Of a DNA stretch of 64,000 nucleotides, positions 15,527-30,554 are shown one piece after another. Below the pieces are notes generated by a model that did not search any database, was not told where the DNA came from, and saw nothing but the letters and a program-made list of their open reading frames with translations. Origin of the DNA: Candidatus Peregrinibacteria bacterium Gr01-1014_25 (GTDB lineage Bacteria > Patescibacteriota > Gracilibacteria > Peribacterales > Peribacteraceae); NCBI GenBank assembly GCA_007376205.1, contig VMFU01000002.1, positions 47,423 through 111,422 on the forward strand. The letters run 5' to 3'. The position numbers and the translations under genes were made by a program. The stretch's first letter is position 1. Every line of letters starts with the position of its first letter.

Positions 15527-15716
15527 GAAACTATCGTAGGAGACCGAGGAGACCGAGGAAACCGAAGAATCCGGGGAAAATGCCATCCGCGCATTCCTCG
15601 GCTGCTTCCATGCCGAACCCTAGACAAAGCCCTTCCACGGCGCTACGCTGGCGCTTCTACCAGCGCCGCGGTCGGCGCTCTTTCCATAATCCTTGGTTTC
15701 GGTTCCCTTCTCTCTC

Positions 15717-18629
15717 ATGGATGCCATCGTCGTCAAAGGCGCGCGGATGCACAACCTCAAGAACATCGATGTCCGCATCCCCCGCAACAAACTCACGGTC
15801 ATCACCGGCGTGTCCGGATCGGGGAAGTCCACGCTCGCGTTCGACACGATCTTCGCGGAGGGGCAGCGGCGGTACGTGGAGAGCCTCTCGGCGTACGCGC
15901 GGCAGTTCATCGCGCAGATGGAGAAGCCCGACGTCGACTCCATCGACGGCTTGAGTCCCGCGATCAGCATCGACCAGAAGACGGCGCCGCGCAATCCGCG
16001 CTCGACCGTCGGAACAGTGACGGAGATCTACGACTACATGCGCCTGCTATGGGCAAAGATCGGCAAGGTTCACTGCACGGTCTGCGGTCGGCAGCTGCAG
16101 CGGCAATCCGCGACGCAGATCGTGGAGGCCATCGCGCGCATGTCGGAGGGCAAAAAGCTCTTCCTCCTCGCGCCGGTCATTCGCGGCCGCAAGGGCGAGC
16201 ACGTGAAGATCATCGACGCGATCAAGCGCGAGGGATTCGTCCGTATGCGCATCGACGGGCAGGTCGTCACCGTGGACGAGGAAGTCACGCTCGACCCGAA
16301 GAAGGTTCACAGCATCGACATCGTCGTCGATCGTCTCGTCGTCCGCGACCTCGCCGCGAAGGAAGAGGGAGTGAATCCCAACCGCACGCGCCTCGCGGAC
16401 TCGGTGGAACTCGCGCTGAAGAAAGGCGAGGGGCTGCTCGTCGCACTCGACGCCGATAGCAAGGAGGAAACGACGTTCTCGGAGGCGTTCGCCTGTCCGG
16501 ATCATCCCGAGGCGCCCGCGCCCGAACTGGAACCGCGCAGCTTCTCATTCAACTCGCCGCACGGCGCCTGCGCGACGTGCCACGGCATCGGCTCGGTGCT
16601 GCAAGTCGACGTCGGCAGCATCATTCCCAATCCGAGCCTGACGCTCGCCGAAGGCGCCATCCACCCGTGGGCCACCTCCGCCAGCCGTATGAACTTCATG
16701 ATGAACGTGCTGGAGGCGCTGGCGGCGGACGTCGGCTTCAGCATGCACACGCCCTGGACGAAGCTGGATGAGAAGCACCGCGACATCATCCTGAACGGTT
16801 ACGACAACCCGCTCACGGTGCACATGGGCGAGGGGCGATCTGGTAACACGTACCGCACGACCTTCGAGGGCGTCATCGCGAACCTGCAACGCCGACACAG
16901 CGAGACCGAGTCGAGCTACGTGCGCCAGCAGATCGAGGAGTACATGCTGGAACTGCCGTGTGCGGATTGCGGCGGCCGCAGGCTCAAGAAGGAAATCCTG
17001 GGCGTGACCGTGGGGAGCAAGAACATCGTGGAGGTCACGGACTTGAGCGTGGAGGAGGCGGAGGGATTTTTCTCCTCCTTGATTCCCGCAAAGGCAACCG
17101 AGGCAACCAAGGATGGCAAGGCAACCAAGGATGTCTTGCCCGCTCACGAATACGCGATCGTGAAGAAAGTGCTGCAGGAGATCGTTGCGCGACTGACATT
17201 CCTGCGGAATGTGGGCCTCACGTACCTGACGCTCTCCCGCGCCGCGTCGACGCTCTCCGGCGGCGAGGCGCAGCGCATCCGCCTGGCGACGCAGATCGGC
17301 TCGGCGTTGCAGGGCGTGCTCTATGTGCTCGACGAGCCATCGATCGGCTTGCACCAGAAGGACAACAGCCGGCTGATCGAGACCATGATGCGGCTCCGCG
17401 ACCTGGGGAACACGGTGCTGGTCGTCGAGCACGACGAAGAGACGATCCGCGCCGCGGATTACCTGCTCGAGATCGGTCCGGGTGCCGGCAAGTACGGCGG
17501 GCAAGTCATCGCCCAGGGCACGCCCGACGAACTCATCGCCCATCCCACGTCGACGACAGGCAAGTACTTGAGCCGCGACTTGCGCATCGACCCGCCCGCG
17601 CAGCGCCGCCCGACGGGCAAGAACTGGATCGAGATCACCGACGCCTACCATCACAACCTGCGTCATGTCGACGTGCGCCTGCCGCTCAAGACGTTCATTG
17701 GCATTTCCGGCGTATCCGGATCGGGCAAATCCAGCCTCATCCACGGCATCCTGGCTCCCGAGCTGCAGCGCGTCTTGAACAAGGCCCACGCCAAACCGCA
17801 GAACGTGGGGTCGATCAGCGGCCTGCAGCACCTCGACAAAGCCATCGTCATCGACCAGTCCGCCATCGGCCGCACGCCGCGGAGCAATCCCGCCACGTAC
17901 ACGGGCATCTTCACGGACGTGCGCGATCTGTTCGCCGGCCTGCCCGAAGCGAAGACGCGCGGCTACCAGCCCGGACGTTTCAGCTTCAACGTCAAGGGCG
18001 GGCGGTGCGAGGAATGCGAGGGCGACGGGCTCAAGCGGATCGAGATGCACTTCCTTCCGGACGTCTTCGTCACGTGCGAGGTGTGCCACGGCCAGCGCTA
18101 CAACCGCGAGACGCTCGAAGTGACGTACAAAGGGAAGAACATCGCCGAAGTGCTCGACATGACCATCACGGACGCCGCCGCGTTCTTCGGCGCGATCCCC
18201 GTCGTGCAGAAGAAGTTGCAGACGCTGGAGGACGTCGGCCTCGGCTATCTCCATCTGGGCCAGAGCGCGACGACGCTGTCCGGCGGCGAGGCGCAGCGCA
18301 TCAAACTGGCGACCGAACTCCTCAAGCGCGCGACCGGCCAGACGTTCTACATCCTGGACGAACCGACGACGGGCCTGCACTTCGACGATATCCGGCGTCT
18401 GCTTGCCGTCTTGCAGCGCCTCGTCGACAAAGGCAACACCGTCCTCGTCATCGAGCACAACCTCGACGTGCTGAAGTCCGTCGATCACATCGTGGACCTG
18501 GGACCGGACGGCGGCATCGGCGGCGGGTGGATCGTAGCCGAGGGCACGCCCGAGGAGGTCGCGGACGTCGAGAAGAGCTACACCGGACAGTACCTCAAAC
18601 AGATTCTGCATCCTCCGTCGCGCCGGTGA
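15717..18629 (+). CDS. uvrA: Excinuclease ABC subunit A
   Basis: GVSGSGKSTLAFDTIFAEGQRRYVESLSAYARQF, TLSGGEAQRIRLA, zinc finger CxxC motifs. Confidence 0.98.
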   Translation: MDAIVVKGARMHNLKNIDVRIPRNKLTVITGVSGSGKSTLAFDTIFAEGQRRYVESLSAYARQFIAQMEKPDVDSIDGLSPAISIDQKTAPRNPRSTVGTVTEIYDYMRLLWAKIGKVHCTVCGRQLQRQSATQIVEAIARMSEGKKLFLLAPVIRGRKGEHVKIIDAIKREGFVRMRIDGQVVTVDEEVTLDPKKVHSIDIVVDRLVVRDLAAKEEGVNPNRTRLADSVELALKKGEGLLVALDADSKEETTFSEAFACPDHPEAPAPELEPRSFSFNSPHGACATCHGIGSVLQVDVGSIIPNPSLTLAEGAIHPWATSASRMNFMMNVLEALAADVGFSMHTPWTKLDEKHRDIILNGYDNPLTVHMGEGRSGNTYRTTFEGVIANLQRRHSETESSYVRQQIEEYMLELPCADCGGRRLKKEILGVTVGSKNIVEVTDLSVEEAEGFFSSLIPAKATEATKDGKATKDVLPAHEYAIVKKVLQEIVARLTFLRNVGLTYLTLSRAASTLSGGEAQRIRLATQIGSALQGVLYVLDEPSIGLHQKDNSRLIETMMRLRDLGNTVLVVEHDEETIRAADYLLEIGPGAGKYGGQVIAQGTPDELIAHPTSTTGKYLSRDLRIDPPAQRRPTGKNWIEITDAYHHNLRHVDVRLPLKTFIGISGVSGSGKSSLIHGILAPELQRVLNKAHAKPQNVGSISGLQHLDKAIVIDQSAIGRTPRSNPATYTGIFTDVRDLFAGLPEAKTRGYQPGRFSFNVKGGRCEECEGDGLKRIEMHFLPDVFVTCEVCHGQRYNRETLEVTYKGKNIAEVLDMTITDAAAFFGAIPVVQKKLQTLEDVGLGYLHLGQSATTLSGGEAQRIKLATELLKRATGQTFYILDEPTTGLHFDDIRRLLAVLQRLVDKGNTVLVIEHNLDVLKSVDHIVDLGPDGGIGGGWIVAEGTPEEVADVEKSYTGQYLKQILHPPSRR

Positions 18630-18631
18630 CC

Positions 18632-19594
18632 ATGCGCCCCCTGCATCCCAAGCACCTGTGGGACGGCGTCATCGCGGCCAGCCTCGCGCTTTTCGCCATC
18701 GGTGCGGGTTTCGCCGGGGCCGCCGTCACAAACGGCACGGCGTCGACGTGGCAGATCGCGGCGGGAATCGCGTGCATCGCTGCGCTTGCCATCGTGATCT
18801 ACGGCTCATGGATCGAGCCGCGGCGCATCGCCGAGCGCCGCCTCCGCCTCCCCTTCCCCATCCCGGGCTTGCGCATCGCGATCGTCGCGGACATTCACGT
18901 CGGCCACTTCGCCTTCGCACCGTTCGTCGCCCGCCTCGTCGAGCGCATCAACGCGACGAAGCCCGACATCATTCTCCTCCCCGGAGATTTCCTCTCCGAC
19001 AGCGAGACGGACATCGCCGATCTGGAACCCCTGCGGCATCTCTCCGCGCGCCACGGGACATTCGCGGTCATCGGGAACCACGACAGCGGACACTACATCA
19101 ACATCCGCCAGCGGCCCTGGAATGGCGCGGACCGCAGCGCGGAATTGAGCGATTTCCTGGAAAAACGCGCGATCACGGTCCTGCGCAACCGCAGCGTGAC
19201 GATCCATGCCGGCGGTAGGGACATCGTCATCGCCGGCATCGACGATCTGTGGCCGACCGTTCCCGCGGCCGTCCCGCCGTTCCTTGCATCACTCGATCCC
19301 GCGCTGCCTACGATTCTCGTGTCGCACCATCCGGACGCCATCGAGCTCGCCGACGCGCGGCGCGCTCATCTCATCGTCAGCGGACACACGCATGGAGGCC
19401 AGATCCGCCTGCCGATCATCGGTCCGCTCCTGCCCGTGCCGACCGCACTCGGTCGTCGTTTCTCGCGCGGTGTGTTCCGCATCAGCCCCACCTGCACGCT
19501 GTTCATCACCCACGGTGTCGGCGCGACGGAATTGCGCTCGCGCCTGTGCGCGACGCCGGAAGTGGTTGTGATAGAAACGGAGAATGCAGAGTAA
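18632..19594 (+). CDS. Membrane-anchored metallophosphoesterase
   Basis: Two N-terminal TM; IVADIHVGH, LLPGDFLSD, VIGNHDSG, VSHHPD, SGHTHGGQIRLP. Confidence 0.92.
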   Translation: MRPLHPKHLWDGVIAASLALFAIGAGFAGAAVTNGTASTWQIAAGIACIAALAIVIYGSWIEPRRIAERRLRLPFPIPGLRIAIVADIHVGHFAFAPFVARLVERINATKPDIILLPGDFLSDSETDIADLEPLRHLSARHGTFAVIGNHDSGHYINIRQRPWNGADRSAELSDFLEKRAITVLRNRSVTIHAGGRDIVIAGIDDLWPTVPAAVPPFLASLDPALPTILVSHHPDAIELADARRAHLIVSGHTHGGQIRLPIIGPLLPVPTALGRRFSRGVFRISPTCTLFITHGVGATELRSRLCATPEVVVIETENAE

Positions 19595-19611
19595 TTCTTT
19601 CCAATATTCTC

Positions 19612-20103
19612 ATGAGCACCATGCATCGTCACTTCACCGCCACCGCATTCGTGGTCGATGACCGGGGCCGCACGCTGCTCCTGTGGCATAAGCGGTTACA
19701 GCGATGGATGCCGCCCGGCGGACACTGCGATCCTGATGAAACACCGGAGGAGACGGCGCGACGTGAATGCCTGGAGGAGACCGGACTGGATGTCGAGATC
19801 GTCGGCGATGTGCAGGACGATCTCTTCGCCGGAACGCCGGAGGAGGGCCGGATGCTGACGAAACCCATCGCCATGCTCCTCGAGAACATCCCCGAAAGCC
19901 GCGAGCGCAACGAACCCGCGCACCAACACATGGACTTCCTCTTCCGCGCCCGCCCCATTGACAGTCGCCAGCCGCTGACGCTCGCCGAGGACGAGGGCCG
20001 CGAGCTGAAATGGTTCACGCCGGAAGAAATCGCCGCGCTGCCCGAGGATCAGATTTTCGCCAATGTGCGGCGGTATGCCTTGGCGATGTGCGGGAGGCGA
20101 TAA
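19612..20103 (+). CDS. Nudix hydrolase
   Basis: PGGHCDPDETPEETARRECLEETGLDV. Confidence 0.92.
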   Translation: MSTMHRHFTATAFVVDDRGRTLLLWHKRLQRWMPPGGHCDPDETPEETARRECLEETGLDVEIVGDVQDDLFAGTPEEGRMLTKPIAMLLENIPESRERNEPAHQHMDFLFRARPIDSRQPLTLAEDEGRELKWFTPEEIAALPEDQIFANVRRYALAMCGRR

Positions 20104-20179: not shown

Positions 20180-22948
20180 ATGACGTGGGCAGCGTTCAGC
20201 CGGCTCCTCTCCGCCTTTCCCGCAAAGGACCGCGAACGCATCCGCAGCGCCTTCGAACTGGCGGAGCAGGCGCACAGGGGGCAGCAGCGCAAGTCCGGCG
20301 AGCCGTACGTCCACCATCCCATCGCCGTGGCGACCATCTTGGTCGGCATGGGCGCCGACACCGACACCATCGTCGCCGCGCTGCTCCATGACACGATCGA
20401 GGACACGCCCGTCACCCTCGAGCAGGTACGGTCACAATTCGGCGACGCGGTGGCACGGCTCGTCGACGGCGTGACGAAACTCTGCCACGAGGATCTGGAA
20501 GGACGCGCGACGCTGGACGAGAAGATCGAAACCCTCCGGAAGATGTTCTCAGCCCTGCAGGACGACGTCCGCATCATGGTGATCAAGCTCGCCGACCGCC
20601 TGCACAACATGCAGACCGCCGAGTTCCTTGCCCCGGAGAAACGCAGAATGCTCGCGGAAGAAACGCGCGAGTCGTACGTGAAGATCGCCGACCGCCTGTG
20701 CATGCAGGATCTGCGCGACGAGCTGGAGGCGCTGTGCCTGGACATCATCGATCCCGAGCTGTTCCGACAGCTCCAGATCGCGCGCGACAGCATCGACGAA
20801 TCGGCCGCCAGCCTCATCGCGATGGTGGATGGCGGGATGGAGAACCATCCGGCGTACGGCGATCTGCTCGAGATTATCCACGAGCCGCGGCCGTGGGAAA
20901 CGCTCGCAAGCCAACTGCAGCGCAGCGGCTACGCCGCGTCGGGCGCGCCGCCCATCGCGCTCGTGTTCGTCTGCCGGGACCGCGACACCTGCTACCGCAT
21001 CATGGGCACGCTGCATGAGCGATGGAAGCGCGAAGTCATGTCCTTCCAGGATTTCATCAACGCGCCGCAGGTCAACGGCTATCGCGGTTTGCATACGACG
21101 ATCATCCTGGGCGACGGCACGCGCGTCCGCTGCAAGATCCGCACGCCCGAGATGCACCTGTACGCGCGCAAGGGGGTGGCGACCCGCTGTTTCGACAGCG
21201 CGGCGAAGAGCATCCTGGATTACCTGTCGTGGGCGGAGCAGATCTCGCCTCTTACGGAGCAGACGCGCGACCGCAGCCAGGAATTCTGGGATAGCTTGCA
21301 GAGCGATATTCTTGGCGAATCCATCGTGGTCCACGGACCCGCGGATCAGGCGGTGTACCTCCCGACCGGCGCGACGGCGCTGGACGGAGCGTTCTACCTC
21401 TTCCGCAGTGAAGCATTGCGCACACGCGCGATATTGGTGAACGGCCAGGAGGTCCCCTTCGCGCAGCCGCTCCACCACGCCGACGCGCTGACCATCACGC
21501 TTGCGCCCGAACCGACCGTCCAGCGCGAGTGGCTGGCGTGGGTGCATACCGGATTCTCGACGGCGCAGATCCGCGCGGCCATCGCCTTGAGCGTGTCGGC
21601 GGACGACAAGCTCCTCCTGGGAAAGACTCTCCTGCAGCGCATATTGAGCGACCGGCGCCGGGGGTTCATCGAGGAATTCGCCGAGAGCAGCATTCGGGAC
21701 AGCCTGCAGCGACTCGGGATGCGGTCGATGGACGACGTGTACGCGGCCATCGCCGACGGACGCCTGGATCCCGCGACGGCGTACGACGCCATGTTCCCGC
21801 CGGCACGGACACGCAACGAAGAAGCGCGCTCACCCTACATCGTGCGATTCTCCTACGACATGAATGACTTGGCGGCACTGACGCGGATCATGGAGGTCTA
21901 CAAGAAGTACTCCTCGCATATCCGCGGTGCCCGCGCCTTGCCCGTCCCTCCGCATAACCCACGCAAATTGAGCATCCGTCTGCGGTACTTTCTCACCGCA
22001 CAGGAGCAACGCTCGCTCCTCACCGATCTGCGCGCGGCGGGGGCGGGGAACGTCGCTGTTGTCGAACGCATCGAACGCCTGTTCCCGCTCCTCTTGACGG
22101 TCATTCTCCTGTGGGCACTGAACCCCGTCGCCGCCAAGTGGCTCATGTTGCACGGCTCGACGCCGCTCTCGCTGCTTACGCTCCGCCTCCTCGTCACGTC
22201 CGTCTTGAGCGCGCTGTTCTTCGGCGTCTGGCGCATCTGGACGCGGTCGACAGTCGGTTCGCTCCGTTCGGCCTACCGCATCGCGCTGCTGCCGGCTCTC
22301 CTCACGTTTGCGCTGGCGACGTTCACCTACCACGCGCTGGAATCGATGGCCCCTTCCGCGCACCTCACCATCCTGCGCTTCAACGTTCTGCTCCTGCCCG
22401 CGCTGGCACTCCTCCTGCGCAAATTCTCCCTGCGCATCGCCCTCGCCAGCATCGTCATTTTCCTCGTGAGCACGGTGTTGCTCATGTGGTCCCCGGGCTA
22501 CGCGCCGTACGTCGGCTTCGGCTTCTCACTCCTTTCCCTGCTCACCTACGTCCTCTACTCGCTCGCCGTCGAGAGCACGCTGCAGAAACACAAGATCGAG
22601 GTGCGTTATCCTCTGCTATTGTTCTACACCGGACTTATCCTGGGGATCATTGGATCGGTTCTGGCGCTGCTGCAGCCGTTCGCGGCGCTGCTGCCGAATT
22701 TCTGGTTGGTGTGCCTGTATGTGGCCGCATGCGTGTTTATCCCGCACACATGCTTCTACGCCCTGCTCAAGCGGCAACCGTTCCGGTACGTCACGGACCT
22801 CTTCCTCCTCGAAATCCCCATCGCGGCCGTGGCGGAGTACGCCTTCCTCGGCCTGCACCTGTCACTGATCAGCTACTTGCTCATCGGCGCCGCTCTGCTT
22901 GGGATCCTGCTATTACGCCTTCGCCACTACAGCCGTCTGGTTATCTAA
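20180..22948 (+). CDS. RelA/SpoT-family protein fused to EamA/DMT-like membrane domain
   Basis: HD: LLHDTIEDT and KLADRLHNMQT; synthetase-like VNGYRGLHTTI; TGS VYLPTGATALDGAFYLF; C-terminal ~290 aa with about 10 hydrophobic helices. Confidence 0.85.
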   Translation: MTWAAFSRLLSAFPAKDRERIRSAFELAEQAHRGQQRKSGEPYVHHPIAVATILVGMGADTDTIVAALLHDTIEDTPVTLEQVRSQFGDAVARLVDGVTKLCHEDLEGRATLDEKIETLRKMFSALQDDVRIMVIKLADRLHNMQTAEFLAPEKRRMLAEETRESYVKIADRLCMQDLRDELEALCLDIIDPELFRQLQIARDSIDESAASLIAMVDGGMENHPAYGDLLEIIHEPRPWETLASQLQRSGYAASGAPPIALVFVCRDRDTCYRIMGTLHERWKREVMSFQDFINAPQVNGYRGLHTTIILGDGTRVRCKIRTPEMHLYARKGVATRCFDSAAKSILDYLSWAEQISPLTEQTRDRSQEFWDSLQSDILGESIVVHGPADQAVYLPTGATALDGAFYLFRSEALRTRAILVNGQEVPFAQPLHHADALTITLAPEPTVQREWLAWVHTGFSTAQIRAAIALSVSADDKLLLGKTLLQRILSDRRRGFIEEFAESSIRDSLQRLGMRSMDDVYAAIADGRLDPATAYDAMFPPARTRNEEARSPYIVRFSYDMNDLAALTRIMEVYKKYSSHIRGARALPVPPHNPRKLSIRLRYFLTAQEQRSLLTDLRAAGAGNVAVVERIERLFPLLLTVILLWALNPVAAKWLMLHGSTPLSLLTLRLLVTSVLSALFFGVWRIWTRSTVGSLRSAYRIALLPALLTFALATFTYHALESMAPSAHLTILRFNVLLLPALALLLRKFSLRIALASIVIFLVSTVLLMWSPGYAPYVGFGFSLLSLLTYVLYSLAVESTLQKHKIEVRYPLLLFYTGLILGIIGSVLALLQPFAALLPNFWLVCLYVAACVFIPHTCFYALLKRQPFRYVTDLFLLEIPIAAVAEYAFLGLHLSLISYLLIGAALLGILLLRLRHYSRLVI

Positions 22949-24151
22949 GGTGCCCCACGCGGCATGGTCGCCACGTGCGATCGCAGCCCGCATGGTCGCC
23001 GTGAATGACACGGCCCGCTCGCGGAGCATTTTCAGGTCCCACCCTTTGGAGAGCAGCAAGCCGTTCTCCTGCTCGAGGATCTCAATATCGTCCTTGAGCA
23101 TCTCGTGATACACGGTCCAGTACATACGGATCTTCGGGTCATCGCACAGGATCGTGTTGTACTGCTGGCGATACCCCATCGGGGCGGACCGGTCGTTGTG
23201 CTGGCGGCTGGGGACGTTGTAAATGTTCAACAGCTGCTGGCCCGGCCGTCCGACGGCGCCGATATTGAAGACCACTTCGCTGCTGCCAAGCCCGTAGGCC
23301 GCGCGGAACAGGATGTCCTTCGCCGCTCCGGCAATGCCCAGTCGCCGCAGGCTCTCGCCTTCCCACGCATCCGGCAGCCGCGTGCCTTGGAGTTCGCCTT
23401 CGTATTCCGCCGTCCGCAGTTCGTTGCGCACGCTGGACCGGCAGAGCACCATGATTTCTCCGATCCTCGGCTTGATGGATTCGTTGATGAAATCCGGAGG
23501 GAACGCGTCGCGCAGGTCATACTGCGGCCAGTCCTTGTGCAGCCCCGTCCTAAGATCGCGCTCCTCGCCGGGTTGCGGCACCGGCGCGGTGAGGGGCGGG
23601 CGGCTCAAGGCGCAAATGGATCCGATGGTAATCACGATGTCCTCGCGCACCTCCAAGCCGATCATGATGATCATGCCCTGCTTGAGGAGCGTGCGTATCT
23701 GTTCCGGAGACAGCCGGCCGGCATGGCCGCCTTCGTTATGGAAGATGGCGATCGCGTCCTCCATCTGCCGATTCAGTCCGTTCGGGAGGCGCTCCGGTCC
23801 ATCTGGCGGCGGCGGGAGACGCGATCCTGCCTGCAGGCGATCGAGCCAATGGACGAACGGATCCTCGACATTGCAGAAACGCCGTACATCCAGCTCGGGG
23901 TCGATGGGGTTGCCGGCCATGTCGCGACCGCCGAGCCGGAAGCGCACGCGGCTGACGAGTTCGCTGTCGATCGGCAATAGGGGCTTGTGCATTTTCCGCG
24001 CGGGGGGGATCGGGGTGCGCAGTCCCCTGCGAAATTCCTCATGCTGACGAAAGAGTCCTGGAGGGATCTCACCCTGTGGCTGCCCTCCCGCTCGCTGGGG
24101 GTCGGGGTCATCACTGCCTTGCCGGATGTCGGTCATCGTCACGCGCCGCAT
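22913..24151 (-). CDS. hypothetical protein
   Basis: 412 aa ORF, coherent composition, no family recognised. Confidence 0.6.
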   Translation of the reverse strand: MRRVTMTDIRQGSDDPDPQRAGGQPQGEIPPGLFRQHEEFRRGLRTPIPPARKMHKPLLPIDSELVSRVRFRLGGRDMAGNPIDPELDVRRFCNVEDPFVHWLDRLQAGSRLPPPPDGPERLPNGLNRQMEDAIAIFHNEGGHAGRLSPEQIRTLLKQGMIIMIGLEVREDIVITIGSICALSRPPLTAPVPQPGEERDLRTGLHKDWPQYDLRDAFPPDFINESIKPRIGEIMVLCRSSVRNELRTAEYEGELQGTRLPDAWEGESLRRLGIAGAAKDILFRAAYGLGSSEVVFNIGAVGRPGQQLLNIYNVPSRQHNDRSAPMGYRQQYNTILCDDPKIRMYWTVYHEMLKDDIEILEQENGLLLSKGWDLKMLRERAVSFTATMRAAIARGDHAAWGTLDNQTAVVAKA

Positions 24152-24779: not shown

Positions 24780-25934
24780 TCAAATTTTCCACGTTTTGTG
24801 CTTCTCCTCCTCGCCCAAAAACCGCTCGTAGAGCTGGAATGACGGATGCGTATAGCGTTTATCCGTCTTCTCCCTGCTCATCGCGATGAGCTCCTGCAGC
24901 TGCGCGTCGGTCAGAAAATCCTGTTCGACAAAGCGCGAGACGTACCGCGTCACGGCGCCGTCATCCGCCCTGAACCGGTCGATCGGTCCGTAGCGCGCGC
25001 GGCGCATCGTAATGCTGCGGTCCATGCCCATGCCGCGATCGCCGTGCGATGCGTGCCAGTCCTCGGTAAAGAGGAGGCGGAAACCGGCCAGGCGCATCGC
25101 ATGCAGGAAGTACATGCGCGTCTCCCACTGCACCGCCGTGATGTACGGGGAATCGAGCGCGGCGGCGACGCCTCCTTCCGCGTACTCGTTGCCGAGATCC
25201 AGGAACGTCCGATCCGCGTCATTCGTTCGCATACGCCAATCGATGGCCGCTCCCGCCTGGTGACCGGCCAGCCCCGGGGATGGGGCCGTCAGGCTCGATG
25301 TCACGCGCTTCACGTCCTGCCAGGACCACGTGGGAAAGTCGCGGGCGATGCGCAGGGTGCGGCGGATGAACAGCCCCTTCTGCACCTGCCAGGGCCGCCA
25401 GCAATCTTCGACATGCGCGTGCACGCCGATGTCCCCTATCGCCCTGCACACCATCGCGAATTTCTCCGCCACTTCCCTGCGTACCCAGAACACGCGGCGC
25501 CGGCCGGCCCACGAGCCGCACGCGTCGTGGAAATGCCCCACGCTGAATGACGCATCGACTTTCTCACGATCCAGATGGGGGCCGAGCGGCACCATGGGCT
25601 CGTCGCATTCGTCGATCTGAATTTGCCGCAGCCGGTCCTGCTGGGCCGCCGTCTGCATGGCGTAGACCGGGTGCAGCGCTTCGTCGAGCGCGCGTTTCTG
25701 TTGCGCCGACAACGACTCGACGAGGCATCCCTTCGCTGGCAATGGAAGAGGAAGAGCGTCCTGACCCAAGCGGTCGGCTAGGCTGTCAACATTGCGCCGG
25801 ACGCGATCGTAGTGCGGCCGCCCCACGGGCGCGAAGGCAAGGCCGATTGCGCTCTCGATGTCCTTTGGCGCATAGCCGGCAAACCACATAGTGCGTGATT
25901 GTACGTCCACCGGTCGCATGGAGACAACGCCCAT
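24780..25934 (-). CDS. M15-family (VanX/D-Ala-D-Ala dipeptidase-like) peptidase
   Basis: SPGLAGHQAGAAIDW (SxHxxGxAxD-like) and FTEDWHASHGD (ExWH) zinc-peptidase motifs. Confidence 0.65.
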   Translation of the reverse strand: MGVVSMRPVDVQSRTMWFAGYAPKDIESAIGLAFAPVGRPHYDRVRRNVDSLADRLGQDALPLPLPAKGCLVESLSAQQKRALDEALHPVYAMQTAAQQDRLRQIQIDECDEPMVPLGPHLDREKVDASFSVGHFHDACGSWAGRRRVFWVRREVAEKFAMVCRAIGDIGVHAHVEDCWRPWQVQKGLFIRRTLRIARDFPTWSWQDVKRVTSSLTAPSPGLAGHQAGAAIDWRMRTNDADRTFLDLGNEYAEGGVAAALDSPYITAVQWETRMYFLHAMRLAGFRLLFTEDWHASHGDRGMGMDRSITMRRARYGPIDRFRADDGAVTRYVSRFVEQDFLTDAQLQELIAMSREKTDKRYTHPSFQLYERFLGEEEKHKTWKI

Positions 25935-25955
25935 GCGCTGTTACACTCCCCCGGC

Positions 25956-28900
25956 ATGGCGAAGCCCCGTTTCGACCCTGTTGACCCACGGCAATCTTTC
26001 CCCGCCCTCGAGCAGGGCATCCTGCAGTACTGGCGGGAGGAGGACATGTTCCGCCGGTCCATCCACCACCGCGGCGGAGCCGGCGACGACGCGCTCAACA
26101 ATCCGGGCGGGCGCCAAGGCCCCGTGAACACGTTCAGCTTCTACGACGGGCCACCGTTCGCGACGGGCCTGCCTCACTACGGCCACCTCCTTGCGGGCAC
26201 GATCAAGGACGTCATCCCCCGCTACCAGACCATGCGAGGCAACCGCGTGGAGCGGCGCTTCGGTTGGGATTGTCACGGCCTGCCCATCGAGAACCTCGTC
26301 GAGAAGGAACATGATATCGCGAGCAAACGGGAGATCGAAGAAAAGGGCGTCGCGTGGTTCAACGGACTCTGCCGCGGCTCGGTGCAGCGGTACGTGAAAG
26401 AGTGGCGCGCAACGGTGGAGCGGATGGGGCGCTGGGTCGACATGGACTGGGACTACCGGACGATGGACCCCGACTACATGGAGAGCATTTGGTGGGTCTT
26501 CGCCGCGCTGCGCCGCAAAGGCCTCATCGAGGAGGGGTACAAGCCGATGCACGTCTGCCCCCGCTGCGTGACGCCGCTGTCGAACTTCGAGGTGACGCAG
26601 GGATATAAGGAAGTGACGGACATGTCTGTGATTGCAAAATTCGAAATCCGAAATCCGAAAGAATCCCGAATCCCGAATCCCGAAAAGACGTACCTCCTCG
26701 CATGGACGACGACGCCGTGGACGTTGCCGGGAAATCTTTTTTTAGCAGTGAATCCAAAAGTGAAATATGTGAAATTTAAATATCACAATGATTTCTTCAT
26801 TGTCGCGGAATCAATATGGATGGACCGTAAAAATCCCAAAAGCATGCTGCATCCGCTCATGTATGCAGAGATAATCGAGCCAGGCGCTGAAATTCCTGAA
26901 ATGCCGGATGTCGTAGATAAATCTTTTCCGGGCAAAGATCTCGTCGGCAAGAAGTACGAACCGCTGTTTCCCTATTTCGCCGCCGACTACCCCGACGCCT
27001 TCCGCGTTGTCGCCGGCGACTTCGTCACGACGCAGGACGGCACCGGCGTCGTGCACATTGCTCCGGGATTCGGCGAGGACGACTACGGCGTGTGGCAGCG
27101 GGAGGCGGAAAGCGGGAAGCGACCGGCGGGCCGCAGGCAGAAAGCCTCCGCTGTACAACCCGATTCCCGAAGTCCGATTCCCGACTCCCGCATCCCCCTA
27201 CTCCAGCACGTCACGATGGAAGGCCGTTTCGTCGACGCCGTCACGGACTTCGCCGGCATGGAGGTGAAGCCGAAGGACGATCCGTCGAAAACGGACAAGA
27301 AGATCGCAGAACATCTCGAGGAGCGCGGCCTGCTCTTCGCAAAGGCTCCCTATCGCCACACCTACCCCCACTGCTGGCGATGCGACTCGCCGCTGCTCAA
27401 CTACGCGACGAGTTCGTGGTTCGTCGCGGTGGAGAAGATCAAGGAAGACATGCTCGCGGCGAACGCCGAGACGCAGTGGGTTCCCGCGCACATCCGCGAC
27501 GGGCGCTTCGGCAAGTGGCTGGAGAACGCGCGGGACTGGGCAATCTCCCGCAACCGCTACTGGGGCACCCCGCTGCCGCTCTGGCGCTGCGGCGATGCCA
27601 TCGAGGTCGTCGCCGGCCGCGATGAACTCATGGCCAAGTGCCTCATGCGCTTCACGAAACTGACGGCGGTGCGGCACGGCGAGAGCGAGGGGAACGTGAA
27701 GCCCGTCTACCAGGGGATTCCTCCGGGCACGGATCTGACGAAGCGCGGCCGGGAGCAGGCGCAGGCAACGGGCGAGCGGCTCTCGCGGGATCCCCGCCCC
27801 GTCCGGATCGTCTACTGCTCGCCGCTGGCGCGGACGCGGCAGACCGCGCAAGCCATCGCCGACGCGACGGGTGCCGAAGTGATCGTCGACGAGCGCCTGC
27901 GCGAAGTCGGCTTCGGCGAGTACGAAGGCAAGACCGTCGACTTCTCGGACCTGGCCCTCGTTCGCGCCCGCCGTGCGCACAAACTGGAGACCGGCCAGCC
28001 GGAGAGCATCTACCACTTCCCGGGCATGGAAACGTGGGACGACGTGCAGAAGCGTGTCTCCGACTTCCTCCGCGACGTGCTTCCCCGCCACCGCAGCGAA
28101 CATATCGTCGTCGTGACGCACGCCGATCCGCTGCAGAACTTCCGGTGGTTCTTCACCGGCGAGGATCCCTTCAAGTTGAGCCACCAGCCCTACCCTACGT
28201 TCGCCACGCCCTACGCGTTCTTCTACGACCACGCGACGGAGAGCGCTCTCGACCTCCACAAGGAAACGGTCGACGGCATCGCCTGGCAGGGTCCGCCCTC
28301 CCCTTTCTCCGTCACCGCCACCTTTGTCCGGCACGGCGAGACCGATTGGAACAAGACGAAGCGCATCCAGGGAGGCAACGTCGACGAACCCCTGAACGAC
28401 GAGGGGCGCAGACAAATTCGCGCGGCCGCTGACGCTCTCGCAGGTCAGCAGTTCGACGGCATCATCTGTTCGGATTTGCGGCGCGCAAAGGAGTCCGCGG
28501 AGATTCTCTCCCACGCGCTCGGCGTACCGATCGTCGACGCGTGGGCGTCGCTGCGGGAGCGCAACACAGGAACATGGAGCGGGCGCTCGTTCGATGACAT
28601 CATCACGAGTCTTTCCTGGGTCCCCGTGAACGGCAACGTGTCCCTGCATCCTGCCATGCCCCCGGAAGGCGAATCGCTTCATGCCTACCTCACACGCATC
28701 CAAGACGCACTCGATGACTTGCGGGCGCGATACGCGGGGAAGCGCGTGCTCGTCATCTCGCACAGCGGCGTCCTGCAGGCGGCGCGGGCGCTCACCGAGA
28801 ACCTGCCCTTCGCAAAAGCTCCCTACCGCTTCGGCAACGGCGAAGCCCTGACGCTGGAGCTGCACCCGATGATGCGACGGACGCCCGAGGTGCTCGATTG

Positions 28901-30554
28901 CTGGTTCGAGAGCGGGGCGATGCCGTACGCCCAGAGCAACTACCCCTATGCAGTAGACAGCGGGCAGCGGGCAGCGGGCAACGCTGATCGCTCACTCGAC
29001 GCCTTCACATGGGAGGGCGACGTCGAAGCCGAACGCGCCAAGCGCTATCCCCTGCCAAGGGGTTTCCCCGCCGACTTCATCGCGGAGAACCTGGACCAGA
29101 CACGCGGCTGGTTCTACACGCTGATCGTCTTGAGCGCGGCGCTCTTCGGCAAACCCGCCTTCCGCAACTGCATCTGCGGCGGCATCGTGCTGGCCGAGGA
29201 CGGACGCAAGATGAGCAAGCGGCTGAAGAACTACCCCGATCCGAACGAACTCATGGAGAAGCACGGCGCCGACGCGCTGCGCTTCGCTCTCATGTCCTCG
29301 CCCGTGGTGCGGGCGGAAACCCTGCGCTTCAGCGAGCGCGCCGTGGCGGAGGCGATGCAGAACATCCTGCTGCCGCTCTGGAACGCCTACAGCTTCTTCG
29401 TCACGTACGCGAATGAAGCCGGATGGGAACCGCTGCCCTCGCGCTCGCACTCCGCGCACCCGCTCGACCGATACATCCGCAACGAAGTGCAGGATTTGGT
29501 CAACCGCATGACGGAGCAGCTCGACGCCTATGACCTGTCGGCCACCTGCGCGGAGATGCATGACACGATCGACGCCCTGACCAACTGGTACATTCGTCTG
29601 TCGCGGCGCCGGTTCGCGGGCAAGGGAGCGCTCGACGAGCATGCCGACGTCGAGCCGACCGTCGACGACCGCAACGCCGCCCTCGACACGCTCTACGACG
29701 TGCTGCTGACCATGAGCCAGCTGCTTGCGCCGCTCTGCCCCTTCGTGACCGAGAGCATCTACCTGAACCTCGTCGGCGAGGAGCACGGCTCCATCCACCT
29801 CACCGACTGGCCGCAGACGCGCAAACTGGGAAAGGACGAGGCCGCGCTCCTGGAGAAGCACCGCATGCTGCGCCGCGTCGTCTCGCTGGGCCTGGGCCTC
29901 CGCGCCGAGAAGAAGATCAAGCAGCGCCAGCCCCTCGCGCAGGCGACCATCGCGCTCCCGCCCGCCCTCGCCTCCCGCCTCGACCCGACCCCCGCCGACG
30001 TCGACGTTCTCCTGCAAGAACTGAACGTGAAAACCGTCGCGTTCGCCGACGAGCCCGGCAGCCTCGGCGAACAGATCCTCCAGATCAACGCCCGCGCCGT
30101 CGGACCGCGCCTGGGCGGCAAGGTGCAGGACCTGATTGCGGCCGGAAAGCGCGGCGAGTTCAGCGTACAGCCCGACGGATCGTTCCTCGTGTTGGAGGAA
30201 GCGATCGGCGCGGACGAAGCGACGGTGGTGTACCGCGGGCGCGAGGGCGAGGACGTCGCCGCGGCGCATGGCATCGTCGTCAGCCTGGACACCCGCCTCA
30301 CGCCGCAGCTCAAGCGCGAGGGATTGCTCCGCGACCTCATCCGCTCCATCCAGATGCTGCGCAAGGACGCCGGGCTCACCATCGCCGACCGCATCATCCT
30401 GGCCGTGGACGGCATTGAGCTGACGGACGCCGAGCGCAACGTCCTGATCCAGGAAACGCGGTCGACCATCGGAGCTTGCAACGCCTCGGCCCATTCGCTT
30501 GACCTCGACGACCGCGTCATCACCATCCGCTTCTCCCCAATCTCCCGCCCCTAA
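25956..30554 (+). CDS. ileS: Isoleucyl-tRNA synthetase with two inserted histidine-phosphatase domains
   Basis: GLPHYGHLLAGT, WTTTPWTLPGN, RYWGTPLPLW, EVLDCWFESGAMPYAQ, KMSKRLKNYPDP; AVRHGES...VTHAD and FVRHGET...ISHSG inserted. Confidence 0.95.
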   Translation: MAKPRFDPVDPRQSFPALEQGILQYWREEDMFRRSIHHRGGAGDDALNNPGGRQGPVNTFSFYDGPPFATGLPHYGHLLAGTIKDVIPRYQTMRGNRVERRFGWDCHGLPIENLVEKEHDIASKREIEEKGVAWFNGLCRGSVQRYVKEWRATVERMGRWVDMDWDYRTMDPDYMESIWWVFAALRRKGLIEEGYKPMHVCPRCVTPLSNFEVTQGYKEVTDMSVIAKFEIRNPKESRIPNPEKTYLLAWTTTPWTLPGNLFLAVNPKVKYVKFKYHNDFFIVAESIWMDRKNPKSMLHPLMYAEIIEPGAEIPEMPDVVDKSFPGKDLVGKKYEPLFPYFAADYPDAFRVVAGDFVTTQDGTGVVHIAPGFGEDDYGVWQREAESGKRPAGRRQKASAVQPDSRSPIPDSRIPLLQHVTMEGRFVDAVTDFAGMEVKPKDDPSKTDKKIAEHLEERGLLFAKAPYRHTYPHCWRCDSPLLNYATSSWFVAVEKIKEDMLAANAETQWVPAHIRDGRFGKWLENARDWAISRNRYWGTPLPLWRCGDAIEVVAGRDELMAKCLMRFTKLTAVRHGESEGNVKPVYQGIPPGTDLTKRGREQAQATGERLSRDPRPVRIVYCSPLARTRQTAQAIADATGAEVIVDERLREVGFGEYEGKTVDFSDLALVRARRAHKLETGQPESIYHFPGMETWDDVQKRVSDFLRDVLPRHRSEHIVVVTHADPLQNFRWFFTGEDPFKLSHQPYPTFATPYAFFYDHATESALDLHKETVDGIAWQGPPSPFSVTATFVRHGETDWNKTKRIQGGNVDEPLNDEGRRQIRAAADALAGQQFDGIICSDLRRAKESAEILSHALGVPIVDAWASLRERNTGTWSGRSFDDIITSLSWVPVNGNVSLHPAMPPEGESLHAYLTRIQDALDDLRARYAGKRVLVISHSGVLQAARALTENLPFAKAPYRFGNGEALTLELHPMMRRTPEVLDCWFESGAMPYAQSNYPYAVDSGQRAAGNADRSLDAFTWEGDVEAERAKRYPLPRGFPADFIAENLDQTRGWFYTLIVLSAALFGKPAFRNCICGGIVLAEDGRKMSKRLKNYPDPNELMEKHGADALRFALMSSPVVRAETLRFSERAVAEAMQNILLPLWNAYSFFVTYANEAGWEPLPSRSHSAHPLDRYIRNEVQDLVNRMTEQLDAYDLSATCAEMHDTIDALTNWYIRLSRRRFAGKGALDEHADVEPTVDDRNAALDTLYDVLLTMSQLLAPLCPFVTESIYLNLVGEEHGSIHLTDWPQTRKLGKDEAALLEKHRMLRRVVSLGLGLRAEKKIKQRQPLAQATIALPPALASRLDPTPADVDVLLQELNVKTVAFADEPGSLGEQILQINARAVGPRLGGKVQDLIAAGKRGEFSVQPDGSFLVLEEAIGADEATVVYRGREGEDVAAAHGIVVSLDTRLTPQLKREGLLRDLIRSIQMLRKDAGLTIADRIILAVDGIELTDAERNVLIQETRSTIGACNASAHSLDLDDRVITIRFSPISRP

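Follow-up and report, generated by a model that had tools for sequence, protein, structure and literature searches.

How SpoT-type hydrolases read nutrient signals beyond stalled ribosomes is a long-standing question, and it is raised in a concrete form by a gene of Candidatus Peregrinibacteria bacterium Gr01-1014_25 that appears to join such an enzyme to a transporter-like membrane domain in a single chain. The gene lies in the 64,000-nt stretch of DNA analysed here (the window), and an earlier note had read it as a Rel/SpoT-family enzyme with HD, synthetase-like, TGS and possibly ACT segments that continues from about position 22080 into approximately 290 residues resembling a ten-helix EamA transporter. 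The open reading frame runs from an ATG to a stop codon without internal stops, and both Pfam searches and an AlphaFold2 model bore out the proposed architecture (Table 1). The HD_4 domain was matched with 144 bits (E 3.9e-42) and the RelA_SpoT domain, which is catalytically dead by its residues, with 50.4 bits against a cut-off of 27, the latter match covering only model positions 30–104 and missing the start of the model. RelA_AH_RIS was also matched, and TGS scored 16.9 bits, below its cut-off of 22.2, in a region that is spanned by the Foldseek match to the SpoT fold. EamA was recognized at residues 794–912 in the full chain and reached 31.6 bits (cut-off 28.2) when the C-terminal 288 residues were searched alone. 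The NCBIfam model for long Rel/SpoT proteins, TIGR00691, gave 360.7 bits, under its curated cut-off of 499.2; the protein is an RSH hydrolase that is missing parts of the long-Rel definition and probably works like SpoT.

Table 1. Features of the fused hydrolase gene and its surroundings (window positions; the last row gives loci of relatives)
Feature	Position	Strand	Remark
uvrA, one conserved flank	15693..18629	+	
NUDIX hydrolase ORF, domain about 19627-20046	19249..20103	+	conserved tight neighbour upstream
Whole gene, putative membrane-fused (p)ppGpp hydrolase	20180..22948	+	922 aa
HD_4 hydrolase domain, aa 24-173	20249..20698	+	all eight catalytic residues kept
Degenerate synthetase (RelA_SpoT) remnant, aa 262-335	20963..21184	+	D264, R295, E324 equivalents lost
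TGS domain, aa 387-439	21338..21496	+	weak Pfam score
Helical AH/RIS region, aa 455-548	21542..21823	+	no zinc-finger cysteines after it
ACT-like domain, aa 551-629	21830..22066	+	no D-x-P-G ligand turn
Predicted ten-TM DMT/EamA-fold domain, aa 634-920	22079..22939	+	TM type 1
ileS, conserved other flank	25899..30554	+	two inserted histidine-phosphatase domains
4-TM Rel proteins of sister families	L227-L237, L242-L261		

The AlphaFold2 model, built on a 30-sequence alignment (mean pLDDT 84.8), placed an ACT-like beta-alpha-beta-beta-alpha-beta fold directly after the helical region, and neither model nor sequence showed a zinc finger between the two; residues 380–633 contain no cysteine, so the ribosome-binding zinc-finger domain (ZFD/CC) is missing. 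Ten transmembrane (TM) helices follow, the first starting at base 22079, only approximately four residues after the last ACT strand. In Foldseek comparisons the top whole-chain match was full-length SpoT (7qpr), then Rel (6yxa), and the C-terminal part of the model resembled DMT transporters with TM-scores of up to 0.71, including the CMP-sialic acid transporter, SLC35B1, YddG (5i20), the triose-phosphate translocator and LicB. With both ends assumed to be cytoplasmic, basic residues are distributed 13.0 inside to 1.5 outside per protein, and on sequence and model together the fused hydrolase is almost certainly embedded in the membrane. Few TM residues are conserved (W645, P649, R669, Y717, R809 and P855), some of them general features of the EamA family, and no ligand-binding residues were identifiable in the membrane domain.

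A profile search of the draft genomes compared here showed that 40 of the 74 host-family genomes have the C-terminal domain, always inside a hydrolase reading frame of 917–1014 residues, a few contig-edge fragments excepted. The family contributed 36 further complete one-frame fusions from independent assemblies, with the start codon aligned in nearly all relatives, and six genomes outside the family but within the class also carry full-length fusions: G060 and G081 (f5), G070 (f15), G686 (f6), G613 (f173) and G641 (f22). Among 384 genomes sampled evenly across the phylum, fusions were confined to the host family and one class relative, and the sample also yielded one ordinary EamA protein (294-aa frame); the 80 matches listed from a wider contig scan were ordinary Rel proteins, none of which covered the TM part. 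The earlier note had named a frameshift or missed stop near 22080, or separate genes in relatives, as grounds for giving up the fusion. The single-frame homologues rule out the former, and no close relative carries the 10-TM domain as a gene of its own; among distant relatives in the class, 4 of the 30 examined have separate adjacent genes, a 4-TM Rel followed by an EamA gene.

When catalytic residues were scored with B. subtilis Rel as the aligned reference, a clear pattern emerged. All 43 fused proteins carry the HD residues R44, H53, H77, D78, E81, D82, D144 and N148, and all 43 are missing the synthetase residues D264, R295 and E324, a loss that rules out a bifunctional Rel as the identity of the protein. 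A second, soluble Rel was present in 73 of the 74 family genomes, and the 41 examined have the reverse pattern: the tested synthetase residues are present in all of them (R295 in 39), and a complete HD site in none. Just two HD_4 proteins were found in the host genome, the fused hydrolase and its synthetase partner on contig C9. This reversal of residues indicates that synthesis and hydrolysis are split between two proteins, with the hydrolysis half in the membrane. The soluble synthetase keeps the zinc-finger cysteines and has no ACT domain, and the fused hydrolase keeps ACT and has no zinc finger; with domain functions assigned from established Rel/SpoT knowledge, ribosome sensing would thus go with synthesis, and ACT and membrane with hydrolysis. 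Judged by its residues, the fused protein is very probably a hydrolase only, and it is likely to be the main alarmone hydrolase of the cell. The suggestion that the fusion tethers alarmone turnover to the membrane consequently stands for hydrolysis and falls for synthesis, since the synthetase half of the fused protein is dead and the second protein is soluble. Most of the 4-TM relatives described below retain synthetase residues, and the comparison suggests that the synthetase may have been lost here separately from its loss in proteobacterial SpoT, although the trees left out both proteobacterial SpoT and the 4-TM Rel proteins.

The fused form is not universal in the family: in 23 genomes it is replaced by a soluble hydrolase of approximately 650–750 residues without TM segments. 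No genome carries the soluble and 10-TM forms together, against about 12 expected from 40 and 23 carriers (Fisher p 3.5e-11, uncorrected for relatedness), and the family switches between them inside at least five genera (g14, g24, g28, g32 and g38). Both forms occupy one locus, with the order uvrA, phosphoesterase, NUDIX, hydrolase, ileS; at loci with visible flanks the fused form points the same way as the NUDIX gene and ileS, and most soluble forms are oriented against ileS. No separate EamA or other polytopic gene was found next to the soluble hydrolases in the flanks examined. Because soluble hydrolases suffice in these 23 sister genomes, membrane sensing is not indispensable, which counts against the reading preferred below. 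None of the long hydrolases was found in four family genomes; in these the HD_4 search gave short frames of 205 residues in G004 (C4:171650-172066) and 167 residues in G055 (C42:3283-3645), a 511-residue frame in G003, and in G101, which is 81% complete, the synthetase only. The short frames of G004 and G055 may be small alarmone hydrolases standing in for the long one.

The NUDIX frame ends 77 bases upstream of the fused hydrolase gene, and many relatives keep the two genes equally close. Since ppGpp is degraded by some NUDIX enzymes, a role common to the NUDIX enzyme and the fused hydrolase is possible. On the other side, ileS encodes a product of 1551 residues, with a start further in likely, in which two tandem histidine-phosphatase (phosphoglycerate-mutase-like) domains interrupt the IleRS catalytic core; the arrangement recurs at L047:349-4749 (−), and its presence in G013 indicates that the inserts are conserved. 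A literature search on IleRS with phosphatase inserts returned nothing relevant. Between the hydrolase gene and ileS the window holds two reading frames on the minus strand: a convergent one at 22913–24151 (412 residues, no Pfam match) that overlaps the final 36 bases of the hydrolase gene, and one at 24780–25934 (384 residues) with a sub-threshold match to VanY, a D-Ala-D-Ala carboxypeptidase.

The membrane domains of the 37 full-length 10-TM fusions fall into six types, one of them a singleton, with mean identities of 36–61% within types and 22% between them. In the TM tree the types cluster, several on long and well-supported stems; type 6 is weakly supported, and type 3 is nested in the type 2 clade. 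Type 5 and a distant homologue (L032) gave no EamA match in Pfam. When placed on the tree of the catalytic half, the types require 16 changes where 5 would be the minimum, and the strongly supported branches alone require at least four changes each for types 1 and 6. Three pairs, each within one genus, illustrate the mismatch: G050 and G025 share 89% identity in HD and 21% in the TM domain, G041 and G107 share 84% and 22%, and G108 and G109 share 85% and 30%. Plain divergence is unlikely to produce such differences, so the differences are most naturally read as the result of recombination or cassette replacement, by which the TM domain would have been swapped repeatedly and in one piece between catalytic halves that resemble each other. 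The domain is under purifying selection and not decaying (dN/dS 0.11), a test based on the only pair that was informative across all domains.

These observations bear on a first alternative, that the ten helices merely keep the enzyme membrane-bound, perhaps close to a site of host contact or nutrient uptake, and take no part in sensing or transport. The existence of 4-TM versions, which implies that membrane anchoring is itself old in the class, and the faster divergence of TM sequences compared with the catalytic half would fit such an anchor; but ten helices in a complete DMT fold are more than an anchor requires, and anchoring alone calls neither for purifying selection (in the one pair) nor for the repeated substitution of other whole DMT types, and we regard this explanation as unlikely.

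Many other families of the class encode Rel proteins of approximately 770–870 residues that end in an ACT domain and four TM helices. All 30 examined have a full HD site, 21 retain D264 and 25 retain E324; with HD complete and the synthetase residues mostly kept, they look like membrane-bound bifunctional Rel proteins. A separate EamA gene stands directly behind the 4-TM Rel gene in G669 and G671 (f21) and in G659 and G664 (f177), the two genes either overlapping or lying a few bases apart. A form of 1100 residues, found in the host family and in f6, combines four TM helices and ten EamA helices in one chain, and hhalign shows homology between its first part and the 4-TM proteins (E 1e-14); in G021 a 14-TM end is attached to the usual catalytic half. 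Rel and EamA parts are thus found side by side in some genomes and fused in others, a pattern that usually signals a functional link, and we infer an evolutionary series from 4-TM Rel plus EamA to the fusion, including the order of events. Several further arrangements were observed. The G040 locus carries a 14-TM hydrolase (L040:1689-4964) and a 10-TM hydrolase (L040:8806-10785) on opposite strands, both between NUDIX and ileS, and about ten genomes have the 14-TM form together with a 10-TM or soluble form. In G662 (contig C124; L225:1294-4614) a Rel of 1107 residues continues after four TM helices into approximately 330 residues without EamA, a further C-terminal fusion that by eye appears methyltransferase-like (GCGPEPG motif). 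Rel genes of sister families contain in-frame TGA codons, a hint that the class is Gracilibacteria; the host family may be Peribacteria-like.

A second alternative is that a working transporter and a hydrolase were fused only for co-expression or stoichiometry and act independently, without allosteric coupling; the EamA genes directly behind 4-TM Rel in four sister genomes suggest that joint expression may be selected. The very short linker between ACT and TM1 in the model argues against this, as does the ACT ligand turn (D-x-P-G), which is kept by most main-clade soluble relatives and lost in 36 of 37 fused proteins, suggesting that the role of ACT changed with the fusion; we consider independent activities quite improbable. 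A third explanation is that the HD site acts on another substrate, for instance (p)ppApp, NADPH or some other nucleotide, and lies outside the usual alarmone control. Activity on other nucleotides is known from small RSH hydrolases, MESH1 among them (PMC9765508), and a Mesh1–NADPH complex (PDB 5vxa) was among the structures in the fold comparison. Three points make this explanation very improbable: the HD motif is complete, as in long Rel enzymes; no further intact HD_4 protein was found in the host genome to go with its intact synthetase; and the fused protein and soluble SpoT-like hydrolases exclude each other. An artificial fusion through a frameshift, an assembly join or a missed stop, for which we found no supporting point, is practically excluded by the 36 additional family homologues and the six fusions in other families.

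We prefer a reading in which a receptor or transceptor module in the membrane controls a dedicated, SpoT-like (p)ppGpp hydrolase with a dead synthetase half, anchored in the cytoplasmic membrane through its ten-helix DMT/EamA-fold domain. Alarmone would be made by the separate soluble, RelA-like and hydrolase-dead protein with its ribosome-sensing zinc finger. On binding or transporting a small solute, the membrane domain would change its conformation, and this change could be relayed through the ACT, helical and TGS region to turn the HD site on or off, a route suggested by the close spacing of ACT and TM1. A plentiful solute would presumably favour hydrolysis and growth, and a scarce one would leave the synthetase unopposed; ACT may have become a mechanical adaptor as sensing shifted to the membrane domain, and swapping that domain would place one and the same output under the control of other solutes. 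We lean towards control by a membrane receptor or transceptor, with its ligand and direction inferred, and to a similar degree towards ligand gating of the HD site by the TM domain, as suggested by the short stretch between ACT and TM1 and by the swapping of membrane domains. That these proteins constitute a family of alarmone-degrading transceptors, in which one hydrolase chassis carries exchangeable transporter-fold receptors and the solute is chosen per lineage, is a more tentative proposal.

Literature searches, incomplete in coverage, found no account of an RSH enzyme that carries a transporter fold or of such a domain being exchanged, and returned nothing relevant on the stringent response in Patescibacteria/CPR or on RSH proteins with TM domains; the word 'transmembrane' is absent from the 2011 RSH survey. 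The fused, swappable membrane part suggests that a membrane sensor may feed directly into growth control. If this is true, bacteria with small genomes could tie the supply of scavenged metabolites straight to growth control, and (p)ppGpp decay would be set by direct membrane sensing and not by the ribosome alone. A hydrolase that is joined to a transporter-fold domain, in versions that differ by lineage, makes the question of how nutrient signals are read testable with chimeras and ligand screens.

Hydrolase-only SpoT proteins are already known (PMC9974481), and that of A. baumannii (7qpr), the top fold match, resembles the fused hydrolase in its active HD domain and inactive synthetase (both judged by residues in the fused protein), its TGS/helical/ACT order (TGS only weakly matched here) and its separate synthetase partner; unlike the fused hydrolase, it is soluble and has no DMT domain, whereas the fused protein is missing the zinc-finger domain and has ten TM helices right after ACT. 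Bifunctional Rel proteins (B. subtilis 6yxa, T. thermophilus 6s2t) share HD, synthetase, probable TGS and helical parts of common ancestry, from which the fused hydrolase differs by the loss of synthetase residues, the absence of the ribosome-binding zinc finger and the added membrane domain. With EamA/DMT transporters (YddG 5i20, SLC35A1 6oh3, SLC35B1 9i20 and LicB 7b0k) it has the ten-helix DMT fold and, as predicted, the N-in/C-in topology in common, but here the membrane domain is joined to an enzyme and identity is only 12–19%. By analogy, the closest known logic is that of CbrA of Pseudomonas, an SLC5–STAC–histidine kinase protein termed a transceptor (PMC7096432, PMC13022988), which likewise combines a transporter-fold domain and a signalling enzyme in one chain; CbrA uses another transporter fold and a phosphorelay output, whereas the output of the fused protein would be second-messenger hydrolysis, controlled by a membrane part that is C-terminal and exchangeable.
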